Translations under genes and position numbers: made by a program
Shown: positions 46,929 to 57,452 of the stretch, in pieces
Layout: every line of letters starts with the position of its first letter
How positions within the stretch are numbered: position 1 is the stretch's first letter
Notes under the pieces: generated by a model
Told to the model about the DNA's origin: nothing
Databases searched by the model: none
What the model saw: the letters and a program-made list of their open reading frames with translations, nothing else
NCBI GenBank assembly: GCA_009886625.1
Contig: QXZA01000024.1
Coordinates: 1 to 64,000 of the forward strand
Reading direction: 5' to 3'
Length of the DNA: 64,000 nt
Origin: Flavobacteriaceae bacterium
GTDB lineage: Bacteria > Bacteroidota > Bacteroidia > Flavobacteriales > Flavobacteriaceae

Positions 46929-47507
46929 TTATTTATATAATCCTTTCTCCTTTAGATAGAGCCAGCTAGCGTAGGGCATTAATTCCTCTACACTTTTTCC
47001 TTGTTTTAAAATTTTTCTAATAGCTGTAGATGCATAATCCAATTGGGGTGCATCCATCATTTTAATCTTTTTATGCTGTAGTTTTTGCTTTGTGACTATT
47101 TTTTCATTTCGTGGATAGACATAAATAGTAAGAAGTGCTAAAATTTTCTCATATTGCTTCCATTGATTAAAATGATTAAGATTATCCTGACCCATTAATA
47201 AGATAAATTGCTTTTCGGGATGTATTTGAAATAAATGCTCAAGAGTGTGAATCGTGTAACTGGGTTTTGGAATAGAAAACTCTACATCGCTTACCTTTAA
47301 ATGAGGTTGGTCAATTACCGCAAGATGAGCCATTTCCAATCGATGTCGATCTTCTAATAAGAGATCATTCACTTTAAAAGGATTTTGTGGGCTAACTACA
47401 AACCAAACTTGATCAAGATCTGTGTTCTCAGCAAAATAATTTCCTAAAGCCAAATGTCCTTTATGAATAGGATTGAAGGTTCCAAAGTATAAGCCAATTT
47501 TTTTCAC
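46929..47507 (-). CDS. nadD: Nicotinate-nucleotide adenylyltransferase
   Basis: NadD joins nicotinate mononucleotide (or NMN) with ATP to make the NAD precursor dinucleotide. The 192-residue protein begins with LYFGTFNPIHKGHLALGNYF, with the nucleotidyltransferase HxGH-type motif HKGH, and has LLMGQDNLNHFNQWKQYE. The C-terminal ISSTxxR-type motif reads YASTAIRKILKQG. It follows gmk on the same strand by 20 bases. The convergent glycosyltransferase gene ends 10 bases away. Confidence 0.94.
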   Translation of the reverse strand: MKKIGLYFGTFNPIHKGHLALGNYFAENTDLDQVWFVVSPQNPFKVNDLLLEDRHRLEMAHLAVIDQPHLKVSDVEFSIPKPSYTIHTLEHLFQIHPEKQFILLMGQDNLNHFNQWKQYEKILALLTIYVYPRNEKIVTKQKLQHKKIKMMDAPQLDYASTAIRKILKQGKSVEELMPYASWLYLKEKGLYK

Positions 47508-47527
47508 AGACTAAAGGTAGGCATCCC

Positions 47528-48097
47528 TCAGGAATTTAAGAAGTCTAAAACCACTTGAACGACTTCTTTCTTAGCTTGATCTAAGTCTTTGTTAATTAGA
47601 CAAAAATCAAACTGAGGTGCATACTCAAGTTCTGTTCTTGCTTTTGCAATACGTTCTTTGATTTTTTCTTCATTATCTGTCCCCCTTTTTCTTAGCCTAC
47701 TTTCGAGTTCAGAAATTGAAGGAGGTTGAACAAAAATGGCGAGGGTTTCTTTGGGATATTTTTTTTTGATAGTTACTCCGCCGACAACATCGATATCAAA
47801 TAAAACTTGTTTTCCAGACGACCATAGTCGATCTAATTCAGAATTGAGTGTCCCGTAGAACGTGTCTTGATATACTTCTTCATATTCCAAAAAAGCTTTT
47901 CCCTGAATTTTTTCTTGAAATTGAGTAGTACTTAAAAAGTAATAATCAATCCCATCTTGTTCCTTACCCCTAGGTTCCCTTGAGGTGGCAGAAATTGAAA
48001 ATCCTAATGGAAGATCTTGTTCAAGTAAATGACGCACCAATGTAGTTTTTCCACTACCAGATGGAGCAGAAAAGACAATAAGTTTTCCAGAATTCAA
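47528..48097 (-). CDS. gmk: Guanylate kinase
   Basis: The 189-residue enzyme phosphorylates GMP to GDP. The P-loop is SAPSGSGKTTLVRHL. SATSREPRGKEQDGIDYYF and the YEEVYQDTFYGT GMP-binding segment are conserved. VLFDIDVVGGVTIKKKYP is the family Walker B region. It lies one base after yicC on the same strand, the common yicC-gmk arrangement. Confidence 0.96.
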   Translation of the reverse strand: MNSGKLIVFSAPSGSGKTTLVRHLLEQDLPLGFSISATSREPRGKEQDGIDYYFLSTTQFQEKIQGKAFLEYEEVYQDTFYGTLNSELDRLWSSGKQVLFDIDVVGGVTIKKKYPKETLAIFVQPPSISELESRLRKRGTDNEEKIKERIAKARTELEYAPQFDFCLINKDLDQAKKEVVQVVLDFLNS

Positions 48098-48098
48098 A

Positions 48099-48956
48099 CT
48101 AGAGTACGTTAAGGAGTTGTTCTTTAATTTTTTCCAATTCGTCTTTCATCTGAACTACTATCTTTTGTAATTCAGCGTGATTGGCTTTGGATCCTATGGT
48201 ATTGATTTCTCTACCAAGTTCTTGAGCGATAAAGCCCAATTTTTTCCCATTAGGAAAATCATTATTCATGACTTCTTTAAAATATTCTAAATGATTTTTG
48301 AGACGCACTTTCTCTTCCGTGATATCAAATTTCTCAAGATAAAAGATCAATTCTTGTTCAAAGCGATTTGCATCTATTTCAATTTTAAGATCCTCTAATG
48401 CAGAACGTAATTTTTGTTCGATTTTTTCATTGCGTTCTGGATCAATTTTGATTACAGACTGGAGATGATTTTCAATGAGTTCAAGGCGTTTTTTGAAATC
48501 TTTTTCCAATGCATTTCCCTCATCTGTTCTGTAATTTTCAATATCTTTTAGGACTTGACCTATCAGGGTATAGATAGCCTCTTTTTCAGTTTCTTGCAAA
48601 GTTTCTCTTTCTGAGGACAAGGTGTCTGGTAATCGCATAGCGATTGCCATCATCTCACTTTCGGATCCATCACTTATTGTTTTGAGTTGATCCATATATG
48701 ATTTTACAACAGCAGTATTGATGGTTGAAGGCGCGTTTTGACCATTAAATTCAATGAAAATATTTAAATCTATCTTCCCACGATATAATTGTTTTGCAAT
48801 ACGTTTTCTAATTTCCGTATCCATTTCTCGCAGATAGGAGGGAGTTCTTAAGTTAATATCAGCATTTTTACTATTCAAGGAACGAATCTCAATACTGAGG
48901 TTTTTGTCTTCCCATTGGGTTTCGGTTTTCCCAAATCCCGTCATGGACATGATCAT
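48099..48956 (-). CDS. yicC: YicC/YloC family endoribonuclease
   Basis: A 285-residue protein that opens MSMTGFGKTE and ends with the conserved C-terminal GSKANHAELQKIVVQMKDELEKIKEQ block (about 256-280). YicC proteins are endoribonucleases implicated in small-RNA turnover. LGFIAQELGREINTIGSKA is the most diagnostic part. It begins the yicC-gmk-nadD unit, 10 bases after the DUF1080 gene, so the unit may share a transcript with the sugar cassette upstream. Confidence 0.92.
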   Translation of the reverse strand: MIMSMTGFGKTETQWEDKNLSIEIRSLNSKNADINLRTPSYLREMDTEIRKRIAKQLYRGKIDLNIFIEFNGQNAPSTINTAVVKSYMDQLKTISDGSESEMMAIAMRLPDTLSSERETLQETEKEAIYTLIGQVLKDIENYRTDEGNALEKDFKKRLELIENHLQSVIKIDPERNEKIEQKLRSALEDLKIEIDANRFEQELIFYLEKFDITEEKVRLKNHLEYFKEVMNNDFPNGKKLGFIAQELGREINTIGSKANHAELQKIVVQMKDELEKIKEQLLNVL

Positions 48957-48966
48957 ATGTTATAAA

Positions 48967-49695
48967 TTAAAGTTTACGAATTTTAATATTTCTGAAGGAA
49001 ACTTTGTCGCCGTGATCTTGGAGTCCAATTTTTCCTGATTTCATTTTTCCAAAACGTTTAAAGCCACAATCGTCATTAAATTTAGAATTAGCCACTAAAG
49101 AATCCCATTCTTCACCGCTCAATGGGAACTCAACAATTTTAGTTCCGTTCAATTCAACACTTCCTTCATTTTTGTTATGATCAATAGTGAGCAATACATG
49201 ATTCCATTCTCCAGCAGGTTTACATACATTCTTGGAAGGCTGCACCATATCGTAGAGTGCTCCTGCTTGGTGAAAATTTGGATTGGCTTTGGCATCAGGA
49301 TGTCTTTCGTTATCCAATACTTGTATTTCGGGTCCTGTAGAATAGGGTTTGTTGTGATTTTCACCTTCTTGAACTCCCCAAAAAATACCACTATTCCCGC
49401 CTTCTGAAATATTCCATTCTATGGATAACTGAAAGCTTCTGTAGGTTTTGTCAGTAACTATATCATGGATATAATCTCCTTTAGGACGTAAATTTGGATC
49501 AAAAGTAAGAACACCATCATTTGCTGTCCAAATAGGAGCAACTCCCATTCGATTAAAACGATGCCATCCCTGAAGAGTTTCACCATCAAATAACGACTCC
49601 CATTTCTCTGTATCAGTTGGGTTGTTTTTTTCTTTTGTAAGGGTGTTACTGCTCATTAATCCTAAAGACAATAACACAAGGAATAGTTTTTTCAT
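48967..49695 (-). CDS. DUF1080 protein (3-keto-disaccharide hydrolase family)
   Basis: A 242-residue exported protein: the signal is MKKLFLVLLSLGLMSS. The mature part is one concanavalin-like sandwich of the DUF1080 family, with WESLFDGETLQGW, EWNISEGGNSGIFWGV and TGPEIQVLDN. The end GKIGLQDHGDKVSFRNIKI is the usual family finish. DUF1080 proteins have been linked to hydrolysis or lyase cleavage of 3-keto-glycosides. It lies in a same-strand operon with epimerase-like, oxidoreductase and permease genes. A function in sugar breakdown in the periplasm is likely; the substrate is unknown. Confidence 0.85.
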   Translation of the reverse strand: MKKLFLVLLSLGLMSSNTLTKEKNNPTDTEKWESLFDGETLQGWHRFNRMGVAPIWTANDGVLTFDPNLRPKGDYIHDIVTDKTYRSFQLSIEWNISEGGNSGIFWGVQEGENHNKPYSTGPEIQVLDNERHPDAKANPNFHQAGALYDMVQPSKNVCKPAGEWNHVLLTIDHNKNEGSVELNGTKIVEFPLSGEEWDSLVANSKFNDDCGFKRFGKMKSGKIGLQDHGDKVSFRNIKIRKL

Positions 49696-49705
49696 AAAAT
49701 CGGTT

Positions 49706-50779
49706 TTAAAGGTTTAATATATTACGTAAATGTTGTTGGTCTACATCGCCTCCAGCAAAATCATCAAAGGTTTTTTGTGTGGCTTCGATGATGTGATTCT
49801 GAATAAAAGGTGCACCTTCTCTTGCTCCTTGCTCGGGACTTTTTATACAGCACTCCCATTCCATTACTGCCCAAACATCACAGCCATATTCTGTTAGTTT
49901 TGAGAAAATTGTTTTGAAATCTATTTGTCCATCCCCTGGAGAGCGATAACGACCTGCTCGGTCTTTCCAATCTCCATATCCACCAAAAGCCCCTTTTTTA
50001 CCATTAGGTTTGAACTCTGAATCTTTAACATGAAATGATTTAATAAATTGGTGGTAATGATCAATGTATTCGATATAATCTAATTGTTGTAAAACAAAAT
50101 GACTAGGATCGTATAGGATATTAACCCTTTTATGATTTCCAGTAGCTTCTAGGAAACGTTCAAAAGTTACACCATCGTGTAGATCTTCTCCCGGATGAAT
50201 CTCATAACATACATCAACGCCATTTTCATCAAACACATCTAATATGGGTTTCCATCGTTTGGCTAATTCAGCAAAGCCAAGTTCTACAAGTCCCTGGGGG
50301 CGTTGAGGCCAAGGGTGCCATGTATGCCACAATAAAGCTCCCGAAAAGGTAGCATGTGTTTTTAATCCAAAACGTTTACTTGCAATAGCTGCTTTTTTCA
50401 TGGTTTCAATTGCCCACTCAGTTCTTGCCTTAGGATTATTTCTTAGGGCTTCTGGGGCAAAATTGTCAAACATGAGATCATAAGCAGAATGTACGGCTAC
50501 TAATTGGCCTTGAAGGTGAGTAGAGAGCTCGGTAATTTCTAATCCGTATGAATTTATTTTTCCTTTCAATTCATCACAATACGTTTGGCTTTCTGCTGCT
50601 TTATCAAGATCAATGAGAAAAGTTTCCCAAGTGGGTATTTGAATGCCTTTATATCCCAAATCTGCAGCCCATTTACACATCCCATCTAAGCTGTTATAAG
50701 GGGCTTGTCTATCTACAAATTGAGCTAGAAAAATTCCAGGTCCTTTTACTGTTTTCATTAATTCTCCAGGCTTTGCCAT
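49706..50779 (-). CDS. Sugar phosphate isomerase/epimerase-like TIM barrel, cytoplasmic
   Basis: A 357-residue xylose-isomerase-type TIM barrel without a signal peptide. GIQIPTWETFLIDLDKA, CYEIHPGEDLHDGVTFERFL and KSFHVKDSEFKPNGKKGAFGGYGDW carry the usual Glu, His and Asp metal ligands. AVMEWECCIKSPEQGAREG contains the final Glu. Such barrels include epimerases and 3-keto-sugar lyases. The start overlaps the oxidoreductase gene by 22 bases. The pairing with a Gfo/Idh/MocA enzyme fits a role in processing keto sugars, but the reaction is unproven. Confidence 0.85.
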   Translation of the reverse strand: MAKPGELMKTVKGPGIFLAQFVDRQAPYNSLDGMCKWAADLGYKGIQIPTWETFLIDLDKAAESQTYCDELKGKINSYGLEITELSTHLQGQLVAVHSAYDLMFDNFAPEALRNNPKARTEWAIETMKKAAIASKRFGLKTHATFSGALLWHTWHPWPQRPQGLVELGFAELAKRWKPILDVFDENGVDVCYEIHPGEDLHDGVTFERFLEATGNHKRVNILYDPSHFVLQQLDYIEYIDHYHQFIKSFHVKDSEFKPNGKKGAFGGYGDWKDRAGRYRSPGDGQIDFKTIFSKLTEYGCDVWAVMEWECCIKSPEQGAREGAPFIQNHIIEATQKTFDDFAGGDVDQQHLRNILNL

Positions 50780-51894
50780 ACATTTCCTTTTTTATGTGAT
50801 TCAACAACTTTTTCAATAAAGAGCATCCCTCTGACGCCTTCGTGCATGGTAGGGAATTCTCCTTTGAAGAAGGTTTCACTTCTCAATGCTTTCGCTACAC
50901 CTTTGTAAATATTTCCCATCGCATCAAAAATTCCTTCGGGATGACCTCCTGGTAATTTCGTTCCATCTGCTGCAACATCTGACACATAAGCATTCCCCGG
51001 TTTGATTACTCGTCTAGGTTCATCGTCTTTTAGGTGGTATAAAAAATTGGGGTTTTCTTGTTCCCATTTATAGGCCCCTTTGGTTCCGTATAAGGCTACA
51101 CTTAAATTATTTTCTTCTCCTGTTGCTATTTGACTTGCTCTCAGTACACCCTTGAAAGTGTCTGAAAAACGAACTAAAATAGTTCCATCGATATCAAGAG
51201 TATTGTCTTCATATAAATTGTTTAGATCGGCTAGGACAGATTTCACTTCTTGTCCAGTAAGGTATTCCACCATTTGAAAAGCATGAGTTCCGATATCACC
51301 AATACAAGAGCTTATACCTGCTTTTTTTGGGTCCAATCGCCATACTGTTTTACGCACTTCCGGATCATGGATTACTGGATTTATCCAACCCTGATAATAT
51401 TGAATATCTACTTTTTGAATTTTCCCTAATTCACCTTCTGCAATCATGTGTTTCATGTGACGGACCATAGGATATCCTGTGTAAGTATAAGTCACTGCAA
51501 AAATCGCGTTGTGTTTTTTTTGTAAGTCTTGTAATTCTCTTGCCTCAGCATAGGTGGTAGTCATGGGTTTTTCACAAATTACATTAAACCCATTTTCAAG
51601 GAGCTTTTTGGCCATTGGGAAGTGTAGAAAGTTTGGTGTTAATACCGAAACAACTTCAATGCGTTCTCCTTCTGGCTTTTTTAATTCTTCCTCAATAAAA
51701 GTATCAAAATCAAGATATACTCGATCCGTATTTACACCTATATGCTTGGCAAATTTTATATTTTCTTCATAATCAGGATTAAACACCCCTCCAGTAATTT
51801 CATAGCGGTCATACATGTTTGATGCAACTCGGTGTAAAACTCCAATAAGAGAATCTCCACCACCGCCTAAAACGCCTAGTCTTATTTTACTCAT
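50758..51894 (-). CDS. Gfo/Idh/MocA family oxidoreductase
   Basis: A 378-residue NAD(P)-dependent dehydrogenase. The N-terminal Rossmann motif is RLGVLGGGGDSLIGVLHR, VICEKPMTTTYAEARELQDL carries the EKP Lys, and the catalytic-type IGDIGTHAFQMVEYLTG block has the conserved Asp-x-x-x-His. The family oxidises or reduces sugar hydroxyls; 3-keto formation is frequent. Its ends overlap both neighbours (22 and 4 bases), so it is part of a tightly coupled operon. No signal peptide is visible, so it acts in the cytoplasm. Confidence 0.93.
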   Translation of the reverse strand: MSKIRLGVLGGGGDSLIGVLHRVASNMYDRYEITGGVFNPDYEENIKFAKHIGVNTDRVYLDFDTFIEEELKKPEGERIEVVSVLTPNFLHFPMAKKLLENGFNVICEKPMTTTYAEARELQDLQKKHNAIFAVTYTYTGYPMVRHMKHMIAEGELGKIQKVDIQYYQGWINPVIHDPEVRKTVWRLDPKKAGISSCIGDIGTHAFQMVEYLTGQEVKSVLADLNNLYEDNTLDIDGTILVRFSDTFKGVLRASQIATGEENNLSVALYGTKGAYKWEQENPNFLYHLKDDEPRRVIKPGNAYVSDVAADGTKLPGGHPEGIFDAMGNIYKGVAKALRSETFFKGEFPTMHEGVRGMLFIEKVVESHKKGNVWQSLEN

Positions 51895-53102
51895 AATGAT
51901 TTTATTTTAATGGTTTCGTTTTTAAAGAAAATTAAAAAAAGAACAAGTACAATAAAAGAAAAAATAGCGGGTTGTACCCATATTTCTTTCCATAAATGTC
52001 CTCCTTCAATTGTATATTGGTCGGTTAGCCATCCGGCAAATCGAAAGCCAATTAGCATTCCAACACCATATGTGGCTAAAGTTATTAATCCTTGGGCAGC
52101 ACTTTTGAATTTTTCCCCTGCCTTGAAATCGGTATAGATTTGTCCCGATACAAAAAAGAAATCATAGCAAATACCATGAAGAATAATTCCAAAAATTAAC
52201 ATCCAAGTTTGCTCACCTGTATTTCCGAAAGCAAACAATAAATATCGTAAACCCCAAGCTAAAATCCCAACAATTAAAGCATTTTTTACGCCATATCGTT
52301 TCAAAAAAATTGGGAGGAGCAGTAGAAAAATAACCTCAGAAATTTGACCCATAATCATTTTGGATGCAGCTGCTTTCATTCCCAACTCGTTTAAAAACTG
52401 ATTGGCATGTTGATAATAAAAAGCGAGTGGAATACAGATTAAAATTGATGCAATAAAGAAAAAGAGAAAGCCACGATCTTTTAACATCGCCAATGCATCC
52501 AGACCCAAGATTTCACGGAGTGTAATTTTTTCTTTTCGATTTGCTTTTGGAGGAGTTTTAGGTAAAGTGAAACTGAAAATTCCCAATAAAAAAGAAGCGC
52601 CAGCAGCCATGTAAAAAGTGTACTGTAAAACTGCTTTTCCTTCCCAAGCAAAATATCCAATAGTAAGACCAGCAATAATCCATCCCAAACTCCCTAAGAC
52701 ACGTATCGGTGCAAATTCTTTGGCTGGATTTTTCATTTGACGAAAAGCAACTGAATTTGCTAGTGCCAGCGAAGGCATATACAAAAGCATATAGATAAAA
52801 ATGTAAGGGTAGAAAAAACTAAAACTGTCTGCATTTGCGGCGATGAATAAAAGTCCAGCTCCAATTAAATGCAATATTCCAAGAATTTTTTGTGCCTCAA
52901 AATAGCGATCAGCAATTAGACCAATAATGAAAGGAGCGATTATGGCACCAATGGATTGTGTTTCATATGCCATGGCAAGTTGTCCGCCGCTTGCACTAAA
53001 AGTCTGGGAAAGAAAAGTCCCCATGGTTACAAACCAAGCTCCCCAAATAAAAAATTCTAAAAAGAATAAAAAGGAGAGTTGAATTCTAGTTTTAGATAGC
53101 AT
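51891..53102 (-). CDS. MFS transporter, nucleoside/sugar symporter type
   Basis: A 403-residue permease with 12 predicted helices. LSFLFFLEFFIWGAWFVTMG at the start and the loop GLIADRYFEAQKILGILHL between helices 2 and 3 (GxxADRxF motif) resemble the NupG/XapB nucleoside-proton symporters. In Bacteroidota related permeases lie beside oxidoreductase and epimerase genes and probably carry sugars or derivatives. The start is 2 bases from the previous gene end, and its own end overlaps the oxidoreductase gene by 4 bases. Confidence 0.88.
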   Translation of the reverse strand: MLSKTRIQLSFLFFLEFFIWGAWFVTMGTFLSQTFSASGGQLAMAYETQSIGAIIAPFIIGLIADRYFEAQKILGILHLIGAGLLFIAANADSFSFFYPYIFIYMLLYMPSLALANSVAFRQMKNPAKEFAPIRVLGSLGWIIAGLTIGYFAWEGKAVLQYTFYMAAGASFLLGIFSFTLPKTPPKANRKEKITLREILGLDALAMLKDRGFLFFFIASILICIPLAFYYQHANQFLNELGMKAAASKMIMGQISEVIFLLLLPIFLKRYGVKNALIVGILAWGLRYLLFAFGNTGEQTWMLIFGIILHGICYDFFFVSGQIYTDFKAGEKFKSAAQGLITLATYGVGMLIGFRFAGWLTDQYTIEGGHLWKEIWVQPAIFSFIVLVLFLIFFKNETIKIKSL

Positions 53103-53104
53103 GC

Positions 53105-54082
53105 TTATAGTTTAGCACCAACTGTTTCTAATAAAGCTTTAGTTGCCTTGATTCCTTCTTTTTCTGAGAGACGACTTCCTTCATACTCTACTCCTACATA
53201 GCCTGTGTAGCCAGCATCTTTAACAATTTGCAAAAGCGAAGTGAAGTTGAGTGTGGTTTCGTTTCCTTCTTCGTCAAAATCATTAGATTTAGCACTTACG
53301 CCAAAGGCTTTAGTCATCATTTCAGCTACTCCTTTATAAGGGTCATAGACGTTGTCACAACTTCCGTCAAAAACAGAACCATATCCTTCCTCAGAAATAC
53401 AGAAATTTCCAAAATCAGGAAGAGTCCCGCAATTTGTTTTTTCTGCACCATTGATTGCTTGCATCAATAAGGGGACGTTGGAGGTAATACGACCATGATT
53501 TTCTACAATAACATTGATTTTAAGTCCGGCAGCATAGTCGGATAATTCTGAAAGACTTTTAATTGAATTTGCAATCCATTTTTGAGGATCTTTTTCACCA
53601 TAAAGATTTAAACGTACTGAAGTACAATTCATCTGATGTGCAGCCTCAATCCATAATTTATGACTTTCAACAGCTGTCATACGCGCATCTTCATCTGAGC
53701 TAGACAAATCTCCTTCACCGTCAATCATGATTAAAACATTTTGCATTTTATGCGCTGCGGCAAGGGCATTATTTTTTTCAACAAAACTTTTTATTGCAGC
53801 GGGTTTGTATTCGCTTTTCATCACATCAGGATAAAGTTGATTTACATATTCTAATCCTTCAAAGCCTAGTTCGTGTGCCATTTTTGCAAAGTCATAAGGA
53901 GAGGCTTCACCAGAGCGAAACGTTCTGTGAAAGGACCATTGGGCTAAAGAAAGTTTAAAGAAAAGAGGCTTGGAGGTTTCTGAAGTGTTCTTAGGGCTAT
54001 TTTTACAAGAAATAATGCTAGTAAAGCTGCAAATTACAAGAGTGAGAATAGCAATTTTTTTGAGAAAAATGTTTTGTTTCAT
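53105..54082 (-). CDS. Exported sugar epimerase/lyase-like TIM-barrel lipoprotein
   Basis: A 325-residue protein with a signal peptide ending in a lipobox (SIISCKN), so it is exported and lipid-anchored. The mature part is a xylose-isomerase-type TIM barrel: FKLSLAQWSFHRTFRSGE, GFEGLEYVNQLYP, KINVIVENHGRITSN, TLPDFGNFCISEE and GYVGVEYEGSRL. The Glu of VENHG and Glu of VEYEG are metal-ligand positions in the family. It is the first gene of the minus-strand sugar operon. Export suggests an action on a periplasmic (possibly keto) sugar; the activity is unproven. Confidence 0.85.
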   Translation of the reverse strand: MKQNIFLKKIAILTLVICSFTSIISCKNSPKNTSETSKPLFFKLSLAQWSFHRTFRSGEASPYDFAKMAHELGFEGLEYVNQLYPDVMKSEYKPAAIKSFVEKNNALAAAHKMQNVLIMIDGEGDLSSSDEDARMTAVESHKLWIEAAHQMNCTSVRLNLYGEKDPQKWIANSIKSLSELSDYAAGLKINVIVENHGRITSNVPLLMQAINGAEKTNCGTLPDFGNFCISEEGYGSVFDGSCDNVYDPYKGVAEMMTKAFGVSAKSNDFDEEGNETTLNFTSLLQIVKDAGYTGYVGVEYEGSRLSEKEGIKATKALLETVGAKL

Positions 54083-54205
54083 GAAGTTTGTTTTGACTTT
54101 GATAAAATTTAAGTCTAAATTTAATTAATTATTTAAGATCTCAATATAAAATATATATATTTGAGGAACTCAGATCTGATAACAAATTAACAAATTGATA
54201 CCTTA
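54083..54205. promoter_or_regulatory. Divergent control region of the sugar-oxidation cassette
   Basis: This AT-rich gap separates the minus-strand operon from the GMC oxidoreductase genes. TATATTTG at 54156-54163 is an exact -7 element for the plus strand. AGATCT at 54136-54141 recurs within the 8-base palindrome CAGATCTG at 54171-54178, flanking the promoter, which could be a regulator's operator. No regulator gene is adjacent. Confidence 0.5.
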
Positions 54206-55897
54206 ATGGAAACAAACTACGATGCAATAGTTGTTGGAACCGGAATTAGTGGAGGTTGGGCAGCAAAGGAACTCTGTGAAAAGGGTTTGAAAACCTTGGT
54301 CTTAGAACGAGGGCGAATGGTAAAACATGTTGAGGACTATCCCACTATGAACAATGACCCTTGGGACTATAAAAGCGGGGATGTAATCACTCAAGAGACC
54401 AGAAAAAATCAAGCGAAACAAAGTAGAACGAATTATACTACTATCGAGTCAAACAAACACTTTTTTGTTGATGACTTAAAACATCCTTATAACGAAACCA
54501 ATCGTTTTGATTGGATGCGAGGGTATCATGTAGGAGGACGTTCTTTAATGTGGGGAAGACAGAGTTATCGTTTGACAGACTTTGATTTTACTGCAAACCT
54601 TCAGGATGGAATCGCTGTCGATTGGCCTATCCGCTACAAAGATTTGGCTCCTTGGTATAATCATGTAGAAGAGTTTATTGGTGTCAGTGGAGAAAATGTT
54701 GGCTTACCTCAATTTCCTGACGGAAATTATTTAAAAGCCATGGAGATGAACTGTGTAGAAGATGTTTTAAAAACATCAATGAGCGAGAATTACCAAGATC
54801 GTATCTTAACGATGGGTAGAACAGCTCATATCACAGAAGGAACAAAACCAGGCTTGGGGAGAAGTAATTGTCAGTACAGAAATCGCTGTATGCGTGGATG
54901 TCCTTTTGGAGCTTACTTTAGTAGTAATTCTTCTACGCTTCCAACAGCAGAAGCTACTGGGAATATGACTTTGAGACCTAATTCTGTAGTTCATGAGGTA
55001 ATTTATGATGCTGACGCAAAACGCGCTACTGGAGTTCGAGTGATTGATTCAGAAACAAAAGAAGTCCATGAATTTAATGCAAAAGTGATCTTTTTGTGCG
55101 CTTCTGCAATTCCAACTACGTCTATATTGATGCAATCCAAATCGGATCGTTTTCCAAATGGTATGGGGAACGACTCTGGAGAGTTAGGGCATAACATCAT
55201 GGATCACCATTTAGGTGTAGGTGCATCAGGACGCTTTGATGGATTTGACGATAAATATTATACAGGAAGACGTCCTAACGGGGTTTATATTCCTCGTTTC
55301 AGAAATATTGGAGGAGATACTAATCGAAAAGATTTTACACGTGGATATGGTTACCAAGGCGGAGCTAGTAGAGGCAATTGGTCGGATTCTATCGCAGAGA
55401 TGGCCTATGGAGCTGCTTTTAAAGAAGCTGTAACAACTCCTGGTGATTGGAGATTAGGATTGGGTGGTTTTGGAGAGATTCTTCCTTATCATGATAATAA
55501 AATGACTTTGGATTACGAAAAGTTAGACCAGTGGGGACTCCCTACTGTAACTTTTGATGCAACAATCAAAGAGAATGAATTAAATATGCGTAAGGACATG
55601 CAACAACAAGCTGTTGAAATGTTAGAAAACGCAGGCTTTAAAGATGTAAAAGGATATGATGGTGATTATGCTATCGGATTAGGAATTCACGAAATGGGTT
55701 CTGCACGAATGGGAAGAGATCGTAAAACATCCGTCCTGAATGCAAACAATCAATTACATGATGTTCCAAATGTCTATGTAACTGATGGAGCAGCAATGAC
55801 CTCTGCTGGGAATGTAAATCCGTCCCTTACTTATATGGCATTGACGGCAAGAGCTGCAGATCATGCCGTTGAAGAATTAAAAAAAATGAATATTTAA
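54206..55897 (+). CDS. GMC oxidoreductase, sugar dehydrogenase catalytic subunit
   Basis: A 563-residue FAD enzyme. DAIVVGTGISGGWAAKELCE is the FAD-binding motif, and the active-site His (about 495, GIHEMGSARMG) and Asn (about 538, NVNPS) are in place. Between them NCQYRNRCMRGCPFG has a C-x5-C-x3-C triplet (Cys222, 228, 232) like the Fe-S-binding Cys cluster of FAD-glucose dehydrogenase and glucoside 3-dehydrogenase. No signal peptide is present; it is likely exported bound to the small subunit encoded 10 bases downstream. Oxidation of a sugar C3 hydroxyl is plausible but not proved. Confidence 0.92.
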   Translation: METNYDAIVVGTGISGGWAAKELCEKGLKTLVLERGRMVKHVEDYPTMNNDPWDYKSGDVITQETRKNQAKQSRTNYTTIESNKHFFVDDLKHPYNETNRFDWMRGYHVGGRSLMWGRQSYRLTDFDFTANLQDGIAVDWPIRYKDLAPWYNHVEEFIGVSGENVGLPQFPDGNYLKAMEMNCVEDVLKTSMSENYQDRILTMGRTAHITEGTKPGLGRSNCQYRNRCMRGCPFGAYFSSNSSTLPTAEATGNMTLRPNSVVHEVIYDADAKRATGVRVIDSETKEVHEFNAKVIFLCASAIPTTSILMQSKSDRFPNGMGNDSGELGHNIMDHHLGVGASGRFDGFDDKYYTGRRPNGVYIPRFRNIGGDTNRKDFTRGYGYQGGASRGNWSDSIAEMAYGAAFKEAVTTPGDWRLGLGGFGEILPYHDNKMTLDYEKLDQWGLPTVTFDATIKENELNMRKDMQQQAVEMLENAGFKDVKGYDGDYAIGLGIHEMGSARMGRDRKTSVLNANNQLHDVPNVYVTDGAAMTSAGNVNPSLTYMALTARAADHAVEELKKMNI

Positions 55898-55907
55898 AAG
55901 CATAGAA

Positions 55908-56483
55908 ATGGATAGAAGAAAAGCCTTAAGAAATATTGGTACTGGAATTGGTGCTATAGCAGTTACTCCCACAGTAATTAGTTTGTTTCAAAGTTGCCAA
56001 ACGGCAGCAAACTATTCCCCTGTATTTATTCCCATGGAGGATTTTAATATTATTTCCAATTTAATGGAATTGATTATTCCAAAGACAGAAATTCCTGGAG
56101 CAATAGAATTAAAATTGCCTGAATTTGCAGATGCCTATATTGATGCTGTTTGGAGTAAAAAACAAAAAGGAAGTTTTGCAGAAGCTTGGGGAGAATTTTT
56201 AGGTGCTAGTACTAAGGCAGCCGCTAAAGAAACGCCAAGTCAACTGAGTATTGCTGAATGGGATGCTCAACTAGCAAAGTATTTAAAGCCTGGCAATGAA
56301 ATTCCTTCTGGTGAAGAGGGTGCGGCCAAGTTTGCGCAAGAATTAAGAAGCTTGACGGTTAATGCGTTTAAAACTAATGAATTTATTGGAGAGAACGTGA
56401 TGGCTTACGCCCCAATTCCAGGTCAACAAAAGGGATGTGTTGATCTTATGGAAACCACTGGTGGTAAAGCTTGGTCTCTGTAG
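55908..56483 (+). CDS. Gluconate 2-dehydrogenase subunit 3-like small subunit
   Basis: A 191-residue subunit beginning MDRRKALRNIGTGIGAIAV, a twin-arginine signal, followed by a lipobox-like LFQSC. The mature region has PVFIPMEDFNIISNLMELI and IPKTEIPGAIE, the family signature of the small (gamma) subunit that stabilises and exports the FAD subunit. The Tat signal can carry the signal-less GMC subunit across the membrane as a pair. The two genes together form a membrane-anchored, cytochrome-linked dehydrogenase. Confidence 0.9.
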   Translation: MDRRKALRNIGTGIGAIAVTPTVISLFQSCQTAANYSPVFIPMEDFNIISNLMELIIPKTEIPGAIELKLPEFADAYIDAVWSKKQKGSFAEAWGEFLGASTKAAAKETPSQLSIAEWDAQLAKYLKPGNEIPSGEEGAAKFAQELRSLTVNAFKTNEFIGENVMAYAPIPGQQKGCVDLMETTGGKAWSL

Positions 56484-56972
56484 TATTCTTTTACCCTTGA
56501 CCAAAATAATCTCGTATCAGGAATAAATTAAATTTCACACCAATGGACAAAATCCAAATCCCTTCTAATCCATTGATATTAATGCCTTAACCAGAGACTA
56601 CTTTATAGTGGTTTCAGGGGGTTTTGTTTGGGGTTTGTGTGGATACGTGATGAGGATTAGTTTTTATCCAAAAACGTCTAAAATCACTCAAAAATGGTAA
56701 AAAACTCCAAAAATGAGTGAAAATTGATTAAAATGGACAAAAAAGAGTCAAAAAAATCTGTTTAGACTACAATTCCATATATTCTACAAGTATTTGTCCT
56801 CTTCTTTGTTAAGCCAATAATGATAGGGTTTAAGGAAAAATATGCATTTTCAAAATGACACAGGACTGACAAAAATTAAGACAATTGATTATCTTAATGC
56901 AGAGATAGGGGGTAAAAGGGGCGTACTTTTAAGATATATGCAAATAAACATGCAAATGAATAGGTAAAATCA
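56484..56972. other. Long intergenic region with short repeats, no gene seen
   Basis: 489 bases between two convergent genes hold no ORF I can support. CAAAAATG occurs twice (56689-56696 and 56708-56715), framed by CACTCA at 56685-56690 and TGAGTG at 56714-56719 as an inverted repeat. ATGCAAAT occurs twice near the end (56938-56945 and 56950-56957). A small hairpin sits at 56597-56612. The region is A-rich after 56665. It may include a decayed sequence or an uncharacterised RNA, but nothing is recognisable. Confidence 0.4.
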
Positions 56973-57452
56973 TTATAAAGTTCTCAAATACTCAGCAATA
57001 GAGCGGGCTTCGTCCTGACTAAGGTTCTGATTGAGCATCATCACATTGTTATATTCTTTAAGCAAGGCATTAGCGATTGGGTCATCCTTTAACATTTCTG
57101 TTGGGTTTAAAAGCATATTCATAACCCATTCTGGACTTCTTCTATCATAGATTCCTTGCATTGCTGGACCAATCAATTTCCTATTCGCCATATGGCAAGC
57201 GGTACATTTTTGTGTGAAGACAGCTTTTCCTTGATCCGCTAAGTCATTATCAATAGAACCACTAAAATCAACACTTTTAATGGGACCTATTCCTTTGTTG
57301 TCTAGATCAATAGGTACAGAGGATTCCCCAGCTGAATAGGCTTTTTTGTCTTCTTTTTGAGTTCGGTTGTATTCAAAACCTTTTTTCTTCTCCTCTGAAG
57401 AGCCACAACTCATTAAAAAGACGAGTCCAAAAAACAGTATAATTTTTTTCAT
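56973..57452 (-). CDS. Monohaem cytochrome c lipoprotein
   Basis: A 159-residue exported protein. The signal ends in the lipobox FLMSCGS, so it is lipid-anchored. After a charged linker (about 22-75) the haem c motif CTACH sits near residue 91, preceded by QGKAVFTQKC. A methionine of the NMMLNQNL or NMLLNP region is the probable sixth ligand. The ATG at 57452 is chosen because longer forms overlap the thioesterase gene and would lack a clear signal. It faces the GMC dehydrogenase genes and could accept their electrons. Confidence 0.85.
   Translation of the reverse strand: MKKIILFFGLVFLMSCGSSEEKKKGFEYNRTQKEDKKAYSAGESSVPIDLDNKGIGPIKSVDFSGSIDNDLADQGKAVFTQKCTACHMANRKLIGPAMQGIYDRRSPEWVMNMLLNPTEMLKDDPIANALLKEYNNVMMLNQNLSQDEARSIAEYLRTL

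Follow-up and report, generated by a model that had tools for sequence, protein, structure and literature searches.

We analysed a 64,000-nucleotide stretch of DNA (the window) from a Flavobacteriaceae bacterium (assembly GCA_009886625.1, contig QXZA01000024.1, positions 1 to 64,000), in which eight neighbouring genes probably encode a route for glucoside breakdown that runs from the periplasm to the cytosol. The source genome, that of an uncultured marine bacterium, comprises 1.9 Mb in 30 contigs and falls within a marine genus of the Flavobacteriaceae. Five of the genes lie on the minus strand. They encode an exported protein of the DUF1080, or 3-keto-disaccharide hydrolase, family (48967-49695; PF06439, 159 bits against a cut-off of 26.8); a cytosolic TIM barrel, called HYD here, which is a predicted 2-hydroxy-3-keto-glucal hydratase (49706-50779; PF01261); a Gfo/Idh/MocA oxidoreductase (Gfo), a predicted 3-keto-glucose reductase (50758-51894; PF01408/PF22725/PF02894); a major facilitator superfamily (MFS) permease of the nucleoside:H+ symporter (NupG-like) family, a predicted keto-sugar importer (51891-53102; PF03825, 375 bits); and an exported TIM-barrel lipoprotein, called TIMx, a predicted 3-keto-glycoside eliminase (53105-54082; PF01261). 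The HYD and Gfo genes overlap by 22 bases and the Gfo and MFS genes by 4, and the remaining gaps measure 2 and 10 bases. Divergent from the TIMx gene, and separated from it by 123 bases, the plus strand carries genes for a GMC flavoprotein, the predicted catalytic subunit of a glycoside 3-dehydrogenase (54206-55897; PF00732 and PF05199), and for a small subunit of the gluconate 2-dehydrogenase subunit 3 family (55908-56483; PF13618, 58.9 bits). A minus-strand gene for a lipoprotein-like cytochrome c, a possible electron acceptor of the dehydrogenase (56973-57452; PF00034, 41.6 bits), converges on the small-subunit gene at a distance of 489 bases; its coordinates are given from the ATG start, and the longest frame begins upstream at a TTG.

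All eight proteins score above their curated Pfam cut-offs. Open reading frames and Pfam matches confirmed what an earlier annotation made from the letters alone (the sequence-only reading) had described, namely five minus-strand genes of these families with overlaps or small gaps, a divergent GMC/small-subunit pair, and a cytochrome c nearby. By eye, hydrophobic N-termini were seen in TIMx and DUF1080 and none in HYD, Gfo or GMC. TIMx has the lipoprotein-like N-terminus SIISCKN, which agrees with its earlier description as exported, and its Cys26 is kept in at least 90% of 38 homologues. The GMC/small-subunit pair had been credited with twin-arginine translocation (Tat) and lipobox signals; the small subunit starts with MDRRKALRNIG, which has the twin arginine, and its lipobox, LFQSC, is not canonical. 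A twin arginine near the start was found by eye in 16/16 small-subunit sequences, and this signal probably lets the small subunit take GMC with it across the membrane.

The clearest functional clue came from HYD. In a phmmer search it matched 8ro4, a solved structure named 2-hydroxy-3-keto-glucal hydratase, over its whole length (residues 8-356; E=1e-161, 541 bits). To follow the cluster among relatives, we used the best 80 of 592 HYD loci, a choice biased to close relatives, and scored gene presence by tblastn at 1e-10 with queries mostly from close relatives. The metal-site motifs YDPSH, FHVKD and EWEC of HYD were kept in 80/80 loci and an E-x-H motif in 76/80. By this similarity, HYD is most likely the enzyme of the hydration step. 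The best solved relative of Gfo was 3v5n (4e-86), and Gfo shared the locus with HYD in 76/80 cases, lying within 300 bases of it in 32/80, an undercount because distances were measured from alignment ends.

Taken together, these observations lead us to read the locus, at a probability of about three in four, as a pathway in which glucosides undergo oxidation, elimination, hydration and reduction in turn. The dehydrogenase formed by GMC and the small subunit would leave the cytosol through Tat, oxidise C3 of the glycoside and hand its electrons to a small lipoprotein, in this locus the adjacent cytochrome c. TIMx, DUF1080 or both would then beta-eliminate the 3-keto-glycoside to the aglycone or second sugar and 2-hydroxy-3-keto-glucal. 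The keto-sugar would enter through the MFS permease, HYD would add water to give 3-keto-glucose in the cytosol, and Gfo would reduce this to glucose. The sequence-only reading had proposed periplasmic oxidation of a glycoside, non-classical cleavage, import and reduction, an outline supported by the 8ro4 match and by analogy with an Agrobacterium pathway and a Caulobacter cluster; it lacked the hydration step, which we assign to HYD on the strength of the 8ro4 match.

The two systems resemble the cluster in composition. The Agrobacterium tumefaciens operon (GlycDH, AtOGE, AtHYD, Gfo) likewise joins a flavoenzyme dehydrogenase to a Tat protein and has, beside a Gfo reductase, two TIM barrels, one of them the hydratase. 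GlycDH is of the GMC type. This likeness is by description, the sequence link running only through 8ro4, whose source organism was not seen. The window differs in adding DUF1080 and the MFS permease, and in its second TIM barrel, an exported lipoprotein with E-x-H, whereas AtOGE has H-x-H on strand 5 (His132 binding metal, His134 catalytic). In Caulobacter, LacB is a cytochrome c. The Caulobacter crescentus lac cluster, also likened by description, has a three-component dehydrogenase, an exported DUF1080 (CCNA_01705), a transporter, two epimerases and a reductase, and all three LacABC components are required there, while the window's cytochrome is adjacent, yet related loci have azurin or neither carrier. 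According to the part of PMC10628242 used here, the Agrobacterium flavoenzyme with its Tat protein, the eliminase, the hydratase and the Gfo reductase act in this order, by C3 oxidation, elimination, hydration and reduction, and convert a glucoside into aglycone and glucose, with the steps of the hydratase and of the reductase described as preliminary. The part of PMC9007349 used here reports from mutant fitness that lacABC, the exported DUF1080, the transporter, the two epimerases and the reductase are important for lactose use. The 3-keto-disaccharide pathway of BT2157-BT2159 in Bacteroides thetaiotaomicron, which appears in NCBIfam names and in PMC9007349, shares with the window a DUF1080 3-keto-disaccharide hydrolase and Gfo/Idh/MocA enzymes; the named dehydrogenases there are of the Gfo type and here of the GMC type, and the window's Gfo scores far below the respective cut-offs (33.2 of 750 and 19 of 650). 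The pathway is thus already known from other bacteria and is common among relatives, and because it is known, its novelty is low.

Within its own genus, the cluster's HYD was found as a strong full-length match in 34/38 genomes; the other four genomes are 54-75% complete, and a partial match was found in one of them. HYD also occurred in 11/23 further Flavobacteriaceae genomes and in 0/39 genomes from other families of the same order. Cultivated relatives that carry the cluster include Maribacter, Zobellia and Cellulophaga. Across the 80 loci, DUF1080 was present in 77, GMC in 76, the small subunit in 65, TIMx in 63, MFS in 61 and the cytochrome in 14. Sufficient flank was available in 62 loci for counting the six enzyme genes and in 41 for the electron carriers. 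The complete set of six was present in 47 of these 62, so the dispersal in related genomes that the sequence-only reading had named as counter-evidence was not seen within Flavobacteriaceae, and in 20 loci from relatives Gfo and HYD were each found in 20/20 and GMC and TIMx each in 17/20.

We also examined a lower-identity set of 40 loci, taken from 40 of the 78 genomes with a hit of at least 60% identity. Gfo was found in 35 of them, MFS of any type in 27 (a figure pooling two transporter types), DUF1080 in 23, GMC in 21, an OGE-like TIM barrel in 17 and the small subunit in 11. A Pseudoalteromonas plasmid holds Gfo, HYD, MFS, DUF1080, GMC, small subunit and a TIM barrel contiguously, in an order different from that of the window; its GMC is 31% identical to the window's, and its MFS, small subunit and exported TIM barrel gave no match to their window counterparts at 1e-3. 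The window's GMC is 57% identical to that of a Ketogulonicigenium cluster of HYD, Gfo, GMC, small subunit and TIM barrel. In two of the loci (L055 and L057) the transporter slot is occupied by another kind of MFS protein that shows no detectable similarity to that of the window, and on a Rhizobium and a Ketogulonicigenium plasmid it is occupied by ABC transporters, the Rhizobium stretch showing no GMC. Conservation is thus stronger for the slots than for the proteins that fill them.

Which exported protein cleaves the keto-glycoside bears on both TIMx and DUF1080. A structure model of TIMx built from 38 homologues reached a mean confidence (pLDDT) of 92.9. Foldseek with this model placed the uncharacterised 4ovx first and C-glycoside deglycosidases at all of ranks 2-15 (several chains, few proteins), and in the TIMx family profile these deglycosidases were also next-best in sequence after 4ovx. 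VIA-align Z scores were 27.3-29.7 for Art22 and a tagatose-3-epimerase-like chain against 24.7-26.8 for C-glycoside eliminases, with many epimerases tying with the eliminases, so the class of TIMx is not decided by fold alone. In a profile alignment (7bvr/7xrf), E194-x-H196 of TIMx aligned with E141-x-H143 of DgpC (residue 143 counted by hand), and His143 is the catalytic residue of DgpC/PuCGE in the part of PMC10628242 used here. D223 and E299 also align with C-glycoside eliminases, and E194, H196, D223 and E299 are invariant in the 38 sequences. TIMx shares with the C-glycoside eliminases (DgpBC, DfgAB, CGD; 7bvr, 7bvs, 8qvc), which act on 3-keto-glucosides, the fold, the E-x-H pair and the Asp and Glu positions, but differs in its identity of only about 20%, in being an exported lipoprotein, in Ser263, and in lacking a partner subunit in the cluster. 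Ser263 replaces the strand-7 metal His in 38/38 TIMx sequences, the residue being His in the four DgpC chains compared. No DUF6379 partner was found among the Pfam matches of the locus, and the partner encoded in a Croceicoccus locus (L151), used as a query, was unmatched at 1e-10 in the 62 flanked loci. Assignment as an AtOGE-type eliminase was rejected, the 38 sequences having E194-x-H196 instead of H-x-H. TIMx is accordingly filed neither as a C-glycoside eliminase, in view of Ser263, nor as AtOGE, for want of H-x-H; it may act like one. The AtOGE structure 8BVK was not among the matches listed in either TIMx fold search, which excludes nothing. H-x-H was seen by eye in the exported TIM barrels of L150, L152, L063 and L066, such barrels occurring in other clusters and elsewhere in the source genome. 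In a Croceicoccus plasmid cluster (L151:2984-11384), a C-glycoside-eliminase-like pair of TIM barrel and DUF6379 protein accompanies Gfo, HYD, small subunit and GMC.

The DUF1080 protein is similar to 8rr2, 8tda and 8v31, and its family membership and N-terminus make it a likely agent of 3-keto-glycoside cleavage in the periplasm. A copy at least 40% identical to a query was present in 70 of the 80 loci, seven held only a more diverged one, and three had none (L089, L139, L145). The exported TIM barrel and the permease tended to occur together: of the 62 well-flanked loci, 50 had both and seven had neither, three and two having one only (Fisher P 8e-6, which is not a real P value because the loci are not independent). 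Of the seven with neither, L145 has only HYD. The other six (L075, L080, L084, L085, L087, L088) still carry GMC, the small subunit, Gfo, HYD and DUF1080, so cleavage there may need no exported enzyme beyond DUF1080. The MFS protein itself falls below the TIGR00889 cut-off (373.5 of 446.1). With HYD in the cytosol and the two candidate cleavers exported, the arrangement suggests that the imported compound is 2-hydroxy-3-keto-glucal. In the source genome, nine DUF1080 matches were found (L001-L008 and G000:C29:93770-94471), two of them within one 463-residue frame (C22) that lies immediately before a Gfo-type gene (L064).

A different division of labour, in which DUF1080 alone performs the whole periplasmic cleavage by elimination and hydration, Gfo reduces imported 3-keto-glucose, and TIMx and HYD are isomerases or serve other glycosides, appears to us rather unlikely. 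It draws on the Pfam family name, 3-keto-disaccharide hydrolase, on the seven well-flanked loci that have neither the exported-type TIM barrel nor MFS, six of which keep the rest including DUF1080, and on a Caulobacter DUF1080 mutant impaired on lactose in the part of PMC9007349 used here. A complete DUF1080 hydrolase, however, would make HYD dispensable, and HYD is retained in loci that lack TIMx and MFS; the eliminase E-x-H motif is also kept in TIMx, and of the three loci without DUF1080 two have TIMx. More remote is a locus for inositol-like compounds, polyols or free keto-sugars, where the compound oxidised by GMC would be a cyclitol or a free sugar, with the TIM barrels and Gfo as analogues of inosose dehydratase and dehydrogenase. 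The permease does belong to a nucleoside symporter family, and HYD is distantly related to IolE (61.7 of 290 bits) and Gfo to IolG (53.8 of 355 bits), but these weak scores stand against the 541 bits of HYD with the hydratase 8ro4, and DUF1080, named for 3-keto-disaccharides, is in 77/80 loci. The inositol pathway was therefore rejected and is improbable. That unrelated sugar genes lie side by side by chance is very improbable indeed: the same strand does run on, at a 10-base gap, into the unrelated yicC, gmk and nadD, but each of Gfo, GMC and DUF1080 is found with HYD in 76-77 of the 80 loci, and a like set in different order lies on the gammaproteobacterial Pseudoalteromonas plasmid. Chance was rejected on this co-occurrence, on that plasmid and on the 40 lower-identity loci.

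Several observations nevertheless weigh against the oxidation, elimination, hydration and reduction pathway that we prefer, the Ser263 substitution in TIMx among them. TIMx was found in none of the 40 lower-identity loci, and GMC is within reach in only 21 of these, which means that HYD and Gfo can be paired with no GMC nearby. The best solved relatives of the window's GMC are the large subunits of fructose and glucose dehydrogenases, and no curated family labels it a glycoside 3-dehydrogenase. In Pedobacter, also of the Bacteroidota, none of ten DUF1080 genes had a lactose phenotype in the part of PMC9007349 used here, and the dehydrogenase mattered. Finally, the glucokinase families Glucokinase (PF02685) and ROK (PF00480) were found in 0/38 genomes of the genus, many of them incomplete. 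The fate of glucose thus depends on a weakly matching kinase candidate of the BadF type, which may replace glucokinase: PF01869 gave a weak match in 31/38 genus genomes and exceeded the cut-off in one. In the source genome this candidate of 287 amino acids lies beside gapA- and pfkA-like genes (L229:5038-7916; gapA and pfkA assigned by eye). The BadF-like ATPase of the Pseudoalteromonas cluster showed no meaningful match to the kinase-candidate stretch, and PF00349 was matched in none of the controls either, which makes its absence uninformative.

The carrier slot beside the dehydrogenase was occupied in two ways. Among the 41 flanked loci, 10 had a cytochrome c and 11 an azurin-like cupredoxin within 4 kb, none had both, and 20 had neither; the count excludes a 94-residue cytochrome fragment in L144, a locus also holding azurin. 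Of 11 flanked loci in the set of 20 relatives, five had cytochrome c, four a cupredoxin and two neither, the motif rule having overlooked a cytochrome in one of these two (L047) that tblastn shows. Ten of the 15 cupredoxins found, some being the same gene in both sets, were compared with PF00127 and all matched it well above the cut-off; the NCBIfam azurin model, applied to four, was passed by two, with two just below. A charged N-terminal stretch is common to 6/11 azurins (L080, L084-L088) and the window's cytochrome, KKEKKKxxFEYKRT in the former and EEKKKGFEYNRT in the latter. Azurin lipoproteins with this N-terminus lie in the cytochrome slot at L080:5866-6375, L084:5857-6366, L085:5284-5793, L086:4317-4826 and L087:5591-6100. 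It looks as if the carrier domain had been swapped, and in L144 (3438-3938 and neighbourhood) the azurin gene adjoins the 94-residue cytochrome frame, perhaps a remnant of such an exchange.

Exchange of the carrier domain is what would be expected of the dehydrogenase's electron acceptor, and the shared position suggests that cytochrome c and azurin are interchangeable in this role. That the cytochrome is an incidental neighbour, its homologue occurring in only 14 of the 80 loci, was considered and dropped, as azurin occupies the same place in other loci. Its earlier inclusion in the system is hence upheld by the azurin in the same slot of related loci and left short by the 20 flanked loci with neither carrier.

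The less ordinary parts of the cluster are the exported eliminase-like TIM barrel, the implied keto-glycal transport and the alternation of cytochrome and azurin. A bolder claim would combine them: exported single-chain eliminases of the TIMx type, with Ser at the metal site, would form a third class of 3-keto-glycoside eliminase, the permease would import 2-hydroxy-3-keto-glucal, and cytochrome c and azurin would be interchangeable carriers. We consider this combination doubtful. Were it true, marine Flavobacteriaceae would be transporting a reactive keto-glycal as a currency. With cleavage outside and hydration in the cytosol, the cargo of the permease is directly predicted. The loci with DUF1080 and without TIMx and MFS are natural deletions by which the two exported enzymes' roles can be told apart, and the alternation of cytochrome and azurin offers a handle on where the dehydrogenase electrons go. 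Marine flavobacteria are usually interpreted through SusCD loci and glycoside hydrolases, and this locus would let a cell with a small genome use glycosides with neither of them nearby, a capacity missed by classical counts of carbohydrate enzymes.

The sequence-only reading had noted no SusCD or glycoside hydrolase gene. This held for the neighbourhood: a scan of 20 genes in the 43-62 kb interval (the cluster's eight plus 12 neighbours, with two small frames in that interval and the rest of the window outside the scan) turned up no classical glycoside hydrolase or SusD family. It did not hold genome-wide, SusD-like genes occurring on other contigs, which limits the statement to the cluster neighbourhood. 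One family scan of neighbouring genes, run at 1e-8, matched 9/10 genes to some family. The source genome also has further GMC/small-subunit pairs (L068:6671-8884 and L069:8031-10450) and one more GMC gene (G000:C10:26948-28621; 67% identical). Beyond DUF1080, after the 10-base gap, yicC, gmk and nadD (46929-48956) continue the minus-strand run, and as yicC is present in 66/80 related loci, the cluster occupies an old, stable site.

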